Source: a virus
Direction: 5' to 3' (one strand)
DNA length: 64,000 nucleotides
IMG/VR virus record: IMGVR_UViG_3300035181_000829
Location: 26,232-90,231 of that record
Position numbers and translations under genes: made by a program
Notes under the pieces: model-generated
Database searches by the model: none
Seen by the model: the letters and a program-made list of their open reading frames with translations, nothing else
What the model was told of the DNA's origin: nothing
Shown here: positions 49,550 to 52,500 of the stretch, piece after piece
Layout of the letters: every line of letters starts with the position of its first letter
How positions within the stretch are numbered: the stretch's first letter is position 1

Positions 49550-52500
49550 TTGGTTGGGTTCCCCGTGATATGGTGATTTTACGCCGTGGTGACTGCATTG
49601 TGAAGGGTTTACCGTCTGACAATGCAGCATCCGCTTCGATAGTGGCTATCTGTTTGGTCAGTTTCGCTATGTCCTTTTCGCTAGTAGCTTTCGACAGGGC
49701 ACCATTGGTATCCCGCCATACATGTTCGAGCATGTCCCGGTATGACTTATTCCGGTTGTTCGCTCCTTCGAACCATTCACTGTCAAGTTCATAGGTAGAT
49801 GCAAGGTCACGCCCAACCTCGGCATCCGCGATGATCGGGATGGAAGGATTCCAGCTAAACCATTTTTCTAGCGGGTTGTTCTCCATGAATTGCTTTACGA
49901 GGGCGCAGCCGTGGGCAACATGTTCTTCCCGCACTAGACAAACGATAGCGTCGTGGATGAACCCGCACGGCTTCAACCAGTCAATCCCTTTTGAAAGGAT
50001 ATAGGGTATAAGCCGTCCTAGAGTCATAAGCCCAAGATCGCTTGCAATCGATTGCACGGGGCTGTTGATTGCCTGCCGCATTGCCTGCTTAGCGATTGCT
50101 TCATCCCGCGAAAAGACGTTCGGCAGGTGGCGGATGCGGCCATCGTAAGTTCGAACAAAGCCGGTTTGTGCAACATACTCTTGGACTGTATTATGCCATG
50201 TCAAAAGGCGCGGGTATGTCTTGAAGAACATAGTCCTGATGTTCTCCGCTTCCTCGTCGGTGAAGTCGATCCCGTAGTCGGTCTTGGCGTAGGCACGGAA
50301 CTTTTTCCACCACATACCATACAGGAATCCGAAGTTCACCGCTTTGGCTTGGAAGCGTTTCAGCGATTGTAATTCTTTATCAAGCTTCAGAAACTGGTCG
50401 AGCGTAAGCCCCATAGTTCCTGCTGCTGTCATCCTGTGAATATCGCCACCATCGCGATACACTTGCAGCATGTTTTCGTCGCCGCTCATCATAGCCGCGA
50501 TGCGAAGCTCTGCTTGAGACAAGTCTAGCGAGATGAACACCCATCCTTTAGGTGCACGAAAGATGCGGCGATACTTCTTAGCCATATCGCCGCGCTTTGG
50601 AAAGTTCTGTCCATTCGGATCGGCAGAATTGTGATTAAACACACCACATGCCAAGTAGCTATGGTCGTCGGCTACTTCGAGGTCAAACACAGGATAGCTT
50701 CCGCAATGGTGAACTTGCGTAATAGTCACTTCATTGTGGTTAAGGCAAGGTTGTCCAGTTGATTGTTCTCTGTATTCTCGTTTATGTGATGAACTTCCAG
50801 CCAATCGGGTAGTTGCAGGGGGTGCAGGTTCAGGGCTTCCGCAATTACTACCCGGTGAACAAAGTATCGCTTTTTGTCTACTACCGTTGTTAAGTATCCA
50901 TGACCATCCTTTTGAAACTTCCCCGGTAGATGGTTGCCCGGTTTCATTCCGAGCATGGGATTTCTGCCGCCCATTTTCGACGCAGAGTATTTCGTGTAAA
51001 GCCTTAACACTCTCTTGCGGAAGTTCTTGTCGGCCAAGTGCCGCTTGGATACAGATATTGCGAAGTGAAGTCCAACCTTTAGGTGTATAGAAACGGTGTT
51101 CTTCTGTGCATCGGATTTTCTCCCCCGCGCTTGTCGTAACGTCATACATAGCTTGAACGGGCTTCAAGTATTTACGCACAACAGGTTTACGGTTTCCTTT
51201 GTGGGTAGTGACCGTATCCCCAATCGCTATGTCGGCTATCCGAACAAGGCCGCGTTGCGTAGGTATGAGAGTATCTGCGTGGACACAGGCTGAGCGACCT
51301 GTAACGGTCGCCGCAAGCTTGTAGGTTGGTCTGATCAATCCGTCGAAGATATACTTGTGAAACCCCTTGGCATAGGTATTCAGCATCTTATCGTTCTTGA
51401 TGTATGTCGTAAGCCGCGCAAGCACAGGATGGTCCGCGACATAGTAAGGAAGCGCCTGCTTTGACGACACCGAAGGCAAGCCGGTCTTGGTAAATGCAAC
51501 AGGTTTAAGTTTCAATCCATCGGGGTGATGGTATAGCCAATCTGCAAGCAAGTCGCGTCTCGTTACTTTAACACCGACGCCGCTATTCCGCCACTTATCA
51601 CGAATGGATTTGGGTATCTGGTTTATGAGGTATCCGCGCTCTTTCTTTTGTATGAGGCGAAGATCGGTTTCGAACTCATTGAGCCGGTTTTCATCGACCG
51701 GGAAGCCGTTACGTTCTACATGGCAGAATGCGCGGCTGGCGGGCATGGACACGTAATCGTAGGTTGCCCGCAGTCGAACGTCCTCGTCAAGTTGTGCGAG
51801 TAGGCGACCTAGCAGGTGCAGCGCCGCGTCCGTATCTCCTGAACCATAGACGAGCATTTTCTCCGGGCTAAGTAAGTCCATGCGGGTCTTACCGTGGTGT
51901 TCCGGGTCGTTATTCAGTGTATCATTGTAGCCCGCCATCTCAGGCACATGCTGTCGAACAAGGTCATCGATATTGATACGCCGCTGGTTTTCATCGAGAA
52001 GGTGCGCGATAAGCATCGTATCGTGCGCGTAGTTCTGCACATCGATGCCCATTTGATAGTGAAGCATCTGAATGTCGAACTTGAGATTTTGCCCGATCTT
52101 TTCAATGCGCGGGTCTTCGAGAATTGTTTTAAGATCAGCGAAAAGCTTTTTCCTATTGATGGTATCCCAAGGGATGAAATTATGGTGCCGATATTTACCA
52201 TAATCATAATTGATCGGGATGATGATAGACTTCCCCGTTTCCCATGACATTTGTATAGTGAGAACAGTTGTCTTCTTAGCGAACGGAACTAGTCCAACGG
52301 TTTCAACGTCGAGCGATATGAGCTTTGGTCTATTTTTCAAAACATCGGTAAGGTCGTAGCACCACTTGTAGTCGCGCTTATAATCGATTGCAGCGGACTC
52401 AATGTCGAAATCAGCTTCGAAGATACGCGAGGCCGTGCGAAGATCAGCGTTGAATGTTCCCTCGGTTTCTGGCTGGCGCTGGGCGTAGAACGTTGACAGC

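Follow-up and report, generated by a model that had tools for sequence, protein, structure and literature searches.

A phage polA intein whose spacer probably carries the decayed remnant of an overprinted homing endonuclease gene

Introduction

The closest published precedent for the locus described here is ShiLan (Arsenault, Gosselin and Gogarten 2025, PMC11855218), in which an insert that preserves the host frame encodes an HNH endonuclease in a different frame and shows a patchy, mobile distribution. The ShiLan insert sits in a methylase gene and contains no intein or intron splicing domain, whereas in the present locus the HNH sequence lies between the halves of a full Hint domain, which separates it from ShiLan-type insertions. 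ShiLan also has no detectable ribosome binding site, for which the authors suggest a leaderless GTG start, whereas the relatives of our intein have ATG starts with Shine-Dalgarno sequences. Among the works to which these authors refer are Gorbalenya 1998 and a preprint on non-canonical inteins of actinobacteriophages, and parts of the nested-intein architecture may already have been described.

Three other systems share features with this locus. Bifunctional HNH inteins, such as the polA intein of Rhodobacter phage RcKickapoo (L082), occupy the same polA site and combine a Hint domain with an HNH nuclease, but the nuclease is an in-frame domain and the splicing domain belongs to a separate lineage. 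Fractured genes with split inteins (Dassa et al. 2009), to which the gp41-1 intein belongs, resemble it, as far as the account in PMC10448857 goes, in having in the middle of the intein an endonuclease gene that is translated on its own. HNH genes are also known from group I introns in phage DNA polymerase genes (APK32, Dor1 and phiL7 P45, as well as I-PfoP3I and I-HmuI), and those of APK32, Dor1 and phiL7 are homologous HTH-plus-HNH genes in polA with their own start. Their vehicle, in contrast, is spliced as RNA, their surroundings are untranslated and overprinting of the host frame is unneeded. I-PfoP3I, an intron nuclease of similar function, nicks polymerase genes that lack the intron, 4 nt upstream of the intron site, and a possible relationship between its HNH motif and the one in the phiL7 enzyme has been suggested (PMC3428280).

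Here we analysed a 64,000-nucleotide stretch (the window), which is a portion of a 90 kb virus record. We consider it very likely that the spacer of its polA intein has been overprinted, in the lineage to which the intein belongs, with a separate homing endonuclease gene, and that the copy in the window is decayed.

Results

The window contains a polA intein with a continuous host frame

The polymerase reading frame in the window was continuous and stayed open through the whole of an insert flanked by TGRSA and SADPNGQN (Table 1). Empty-site polymerases without the insert were found in L001 (66% identical) and in Rhodobacter phage RcMenchie (L083), and their uninterrupted junctions read TGRSASADPNGQN and TGRSASDNPNGQN, respectively. 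All sequence marks of a class 1 Hint intein were present in the insert, including Cys1, a TxxH motif in block B (TEEH), a C-terminal HN and a nucleophilic +1 Ser, and the Pfam Intein_splicing profile matched with 39 bits, above its cut-off of 35.8. In an AF2 model of the intein, pLDDT was above 90 for residues 1–80 and the last ~30 residues, fell to ~60 by residue 85 and was below 50 at residues 87–90 and 104–181. Foldseek searches with this model returned the gp41-1, DnaB and DnaE inteins and thus the Hint fold; gp41-1 was also the nearest solved intein by sequence. By its motifs and its modelled fold the insert is an intein, which would remove itself by protein splicing, and the original prediction of an intein with splicing blocks at both ends and an open polymerase frame was correct to the exact coordinates.

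Table 1 Coordinates of the polA gene, the intein and the nested HNH remnant in the window
Feature	Position	Strand	Evidence or remark
Host gene, phage family A DNA polymerase (polA)	49464..52943	−	DNA_pol_A 1e-59; 1159 aa
polA intein, 220 aa, codons 553–772	50628..51287	−	Between extein residues TGRSA and SADPN; insert absent in L001/L083; Intein_splicing match; predicted Hint fold
N-terminal splicing half of the Hint domain	51032..51287	−	Cys1 51285–51287; block B TEEH 51096–51107; conserved C1, T61 and H64 columns; pLDDT
C-terminal splicing half	50628..50738	−	Ends HN; +1 extein Ser 50625–50627; TIGR01443 match; pLDDT >90 from about residue 190
Intein spacer in the polymerase frame, overlapping the HNH sequence	50741..51031	−	Predicted disordered (pLDDT)
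Remnant of the nested HNH gene, +1 frame, ISVSKRH...LALTTMK, 110 codons	50729..51058	−	Stop TGA 50726–50728; 37–51% identity to 22 relatives in alignment
Start-codon position of the nested gene	51056..51058	−	ATA in the window; ATG in nearly all relatives; upstream Shine-Dalgarno absent
Junction of the missing ~42 codons (HTH domain), VLRLY/TKYSASK	50995..50996	−	Alignment with 22 relatives

The insert differs from a bifunctional intein with an in-frame nuclease, because its HNH sequence lies at +1 and its in-frame spacer is predicted to be disordered. Host genes in fractured-gene systems are reportedly split, whereas the polA frame of the window is unbroken, which sets it apart from a split intein in a fractured gene. 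It is hardly conceivable that the insert is a self-splicing intron with an HNH gene rather than an intein. Homologous HNH genes are indeed borne by introns in the polA genes of APK32 and Dor1, but no Rfam intron was matched between 50000 and 52000 of the window, even at E 1, nor was an intron matched in the related loci L120, L126 and L113; all splicing blocks are present, a Hint fold is predicted, and the frame is open in all copies.

A second open frame of the intein encodes an HNH endonuclease

In the +1 frame of the intein, the ORF at 50726–51145 matched HNH_3 (E 3e-6; 27.2 bits against a curated cut-off of 24.8) and phrog_59 (E 5e-11), which upheld the predicted shifted-frame HNH endonuclease. 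The third frame contained 18 stops. Synonymous shuffling of the codons in the HNH part generated a mean of 4.9 polymerase-frame stops, and zero stops were obtained in 0.1% of the shuffles; with none observed, the openness of both frames in the window exceeds chance. The nuclease had originally been described as NUMOD3-like plus HNH, and the HNH part was supported by HNH_3 matches in 22 of 22 full-length relatives, whereas the NUMOD3 part was weak, with a Pfam match in one of the 22.

The shifted HNH is shared by inteins at the same site

A DNA-level search of phages with the window intein gave chance matches only, and searching viral contigs with either single sequence, that of the intein or that of the HNH ORF, did not find the relatives, the sequences being too divergent; the HNH ORF search in plasmids found none. 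A frame-blind DNA pattern of 35 bases, which covered the C-terminal junction only (HN, three residues and PNxQN[x]P), detected 55 viral loci, mostly polA genes with an intein at the same site. Of the inteins recovered, 22 distinct full-length ones contained the whole HNH ORF (about 163–194 codons), and four cut-off ones a part of it. Alignment with these same-site inteins placed the HNH at +1 in all 22 full-length relatives of the nested lineage as well as in the four cut-off ones, and the polymerase frame contained no stops. Six further nested loci (L144, L146, L149–L152) were recovered by profile search.

The nested HNH proteins shared a start of M-S-V/I-S-K, an HTH region, and the motifs RYSxSKxGxKNPM, GYLT, VHHIDxDPxNNxLDNLA and GHxxxH, with 14 residues invariant among them. 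The AF2 model of a nested HNH protein had a pLDDT of 86, and its best PDB match was I-HmuI, although weak (Foldseek E 0.04). From the consistent +1 frame in these alignments, we conclude that the shifted HNH is an inherited architecture and not the accident of one phage.

According to one earlier suggestion, a formerly in-frame HNH was shifted by two compensating indels in this phage only. In RcKickapoo, which has the closest polymerase among the intein carriers, this site is indeed occupied by an intein with an in-frame HNH. That intein, however, belongs to a separate splicing-domain lineage (100/99), and the HNH is at +1 in 22 of 22 full-length relatives, mostly with its own ATG and Shine-Dalgarno sequence. 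The indels would survive only as one ancient pair common to all relatives, with the start and the Shine-Dalgarno gained thereafter, and we regard this explanation as very unlikely.

Ascertainment bias, by which loci with a broken polymerase frame would have been missed, was rejected, since the scan used only 35 junction bases. Where the open frames were short (L087, L090, L092, L112, L133 and L139), no +1 HNH with a broken host frame was present. In L133, near 6290 (minus strand), the N-intein and C-intein of polA were in different frames with no gene between them, which represents a split intein or a sequencing error.

Nested genes carry their own start signals

The nested starts were located directly 3' of block B. 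Shine-Dalgarno matches of at least four bases were found at 19 of the 22 nested starts, compared with 27% of a control set of 590 further ATGs that lie out of frame in these genes (p 1e-8), and matches of at least five bases at 15 of the 22, compared with 6.3% of these controls (p 1e-13). A TTG instead of an ATG start codon was required in L119 and L131, and the nested starts of L104, L114 and L141 were without a recognisable Shine-Dalgarno. When read in the polymerase frame, the bases of the start region encoded normal intein residues, such as V-E-E-L.

Because the nested starts carry an ATG and a Shine-Dalgarno, separate initiation appears to be the most economical mode of expression, by which the nested gene would be translated with no need of frameshifting. 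The proposal that the nuclease is expressed on its own thus agrees with the sequences of the relatives and probably does not hold for the window, where the gene is decayed. Frameshifting had been put forward as well, and programmed ribosomal frameshifting would yield an intein–HNH fusion. Both frames are open, and the offset is +1 in all polA cases, but the dedicated ATG and Shine-Dalgarno in the relatives, together with the need of the polymerase to stay in frame 0, make this extremely improbable.

Stop avoidance and constraint on the two frames

In the +1 arrangement, the polymerase frame can acquire a stop only if AA, AG or GA follows an HNH codon with T at its third position. T was never found at these wobble positions in the nested genes (0/808), compared with 279 of 1188 (23.5%) in exteins, and it occupied 26.5% of the wobble positions elsewhere in the nested genes. 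A natural context bias was ruled out as the cause of this avoidance, as T was equally frequent at critical and other wobble sites (23.5% vs 23.6%) in the C-exteins of the same loci. Codon shuffling over 29 nested ORFs gave an expectation of 188 polymerase-frame stops, and 0 were observed. Every NNT codon has a synonymous NNC codon, and any nuclease can therefore occupy the +1 frame while the host frame is kept clear of stops.

Differences in the HNH frame were distributed as 0.45, 0.39 and 0.59 over codon positions 1, 2 and 3, and the same bases were 44% identical when read in the HNH frame vs 24% in the polymerase frame. The nuclease is the constrained protein, and the polymerase-frame text only has to remain open. 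Broken copies do occur (L096/L130 and L137), as would be expected if the nested ORFs were inert relics everywhere, open by chance or through shared descent. Against this, the HNH frame is constrained, 14 residues are invariant, Shine-Dalgarno sequences are enriched and the trees are incongruent (see below), so that such a scenario seems highly improbable.

The nested gene has decayed in the window

No Shine-Dalgarno was found at any candidate start of the HNH frame in the window. The gene ends after LALTTMK and has lost the two C-terminal histidines that are invariant in the 22 relatives, and all its lesions, including those at the start and in the HTH region (Table 1), leave the polymerase frame intact. 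The window thus retains the Hint domain of the nested lineage, the +1 HNH and the polA TGR^xxPN site, and lacks a start codon of its own, the Shine-Dalgarno, the HTH and the GHxxxH end, as a degenerate member would.

The HNH frame is still open, and because its substitution pattern remains coding-like, the decay was judged to be recent. From the alignment, the window copy is a recently decayed member of the nested lineage in which the splicing blocks are retained, and the element has probably kept splicing and lost mobility. With the frame open and substitutions coding-like, residual function of the HNH is possible; that it is still a working nuclease, started at the ATA or at an upstream ATG (51145), is unlikely in view of the missing Shine-Dalgarno, HTH and histidines. 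Decay was also seen in L096/L130, which carry stops in the nested frame, and in L137 (10292–10756), a 155-aa mini-intein in which the nested HNH gene is deleted except for its two ends. These are later decay stages than that of the window.

Mobility of the lineage and origin of the nested gene

In the splicing-domain tree, the eight inteins with an in-frame HNH, including that of RcKickapoo, split with 100/99 from the 25 rows of the nested lineage, to which the window belongs. The extein tree, on the other hand, joined the window with RcKickapoo (99/96), and the pairs L127–L107, L124–L106, L114–L129 and L125–L135 likewise crossed both intein lineages. As the trees are incongruent, sister polymerases appear to have been invaded at one site by different inteins, which suggests that the lineage is mobile. 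The HNH was absent from intein-free relatives. RcKickapoo and the phages L083 and L084 have near-identical Rhodobacter phage polymerases with and without the in-frame HNH intein, and form a natural empty-site pair.

The nearest annotated relatives of the nested HNH were free-standing or intron genes in phage polA. The homologues in APK32 and Dor1 lie within group I introns, with Rfam E values of 3e-6 and 1.5e-5 that are under the family gathering score; the APK32 intron follows ...TGRLSGSRP and the Dor1 intron the equivalent position, some four codons 3' of the intein insertion site. The phiL7 P45 gene, an intron-type HTH-plus-HNH gene in polA, matched the nested HNH. It is most likely that the nested HNH goes back to a nuclease gene of the intron type that had a start of its own and was captured by an intein. 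Captured as a self-contained gene rather than fused as an in-frame domain, it would have had a free choice of frame. The mobility of the lineage and the intron-encoded relatives suggest, by analogy, that the nuclease cuts polA.

Intact HNH genes of the same family were also observed free-standing, directly 3' of truncated polA fragments, in the bacterial contigs L224 (2206–3546) and L225 (2212–3456). The polA fragment of L224 ends with TGRSSSR, and neither locus gave an Rfam intron match.

Discussion

We propose that, in the intact relatives, ribosomes reading the polymerase frame through the intein would produce a self-splicing precursor, and other ribosomes would initiate inside the intein, at the Shine-Dalgarno and ATG past block B, and produce the +1 HTH-plus-HNH nuclease. 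This nuclease may nick or cut polA genes that lack the intein, close to the same conserved motif, and the intein would be copied in when the cut gene is repaired. The HNH may have arrived as a self-contained cassette like those in phage polA group I introns, with the polymerase frame kept open by synonymous T-to-C wobble changes at potential stops. In the window, the nuclease gene would then have lost its start, Shine-Dalgarno, HTH and final histidines by changes that preserved the polymerase frame.

Other nucleases were found in comparable positions. DUF559 (Vsr-like) nuclease ORFs were located at +1 in three polA inteins (L088:3078–4484, L110:2–412 and L121:2154–3098). Inteins with an HNH plus zinc-finger-like ORF at +2 and an open host frame were observed in the terminase large subunit of L163, L185, L195, L211, L212, L215, L218, L245 and L311, the last of which is the isolated Acinetobacter phage Highwayman, and another such intein was seen in L197. 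In these terminase +2 cases few stops are expected anyway, so that stop avoidance cannot be demonstrated. A fractured polA with the same intein site was found in L092 (8618–12859), where an ORF encoding the N-terminal polymerase and N-intein is followed by a separate 353-aa ORF, GIY-YIG-like by eye, and then by an ORF encoding the C-intein and C-terminal polymerase, the start of which overlaps the 353-aa ORF.

It is fairly likely that many phage inteins form a widespread class whose homing endonuclease is a separate gene overprinted in another frame, and not a domain of the intein. Such a class would have been assembled independently several times (HTH-plus-HNH and DUF559 at +1 in polA, zinc-finger HNH at +2 in the terminase) from captured intron-type nucleases, and would link the nucleases of group I introns with inteins and with fractured genes that carry split inteins. 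Inteins are usually described with an in-frame endonuclease, and with a recurrent out-of-frame class, annotations would miss many homing endonucleases. The arrangement would also provide a natural overlapping-gene system, in which one protein is constrained and the other only stays open, and the choice of +1 has a testable logic through the synonymy of NNT and NNC. Such a class would further show, in concrete terms, how nucleases carried by introns could have passed into inteins and into fractured genes. The copy in the window illustrates the decay phase of the homing cycle.
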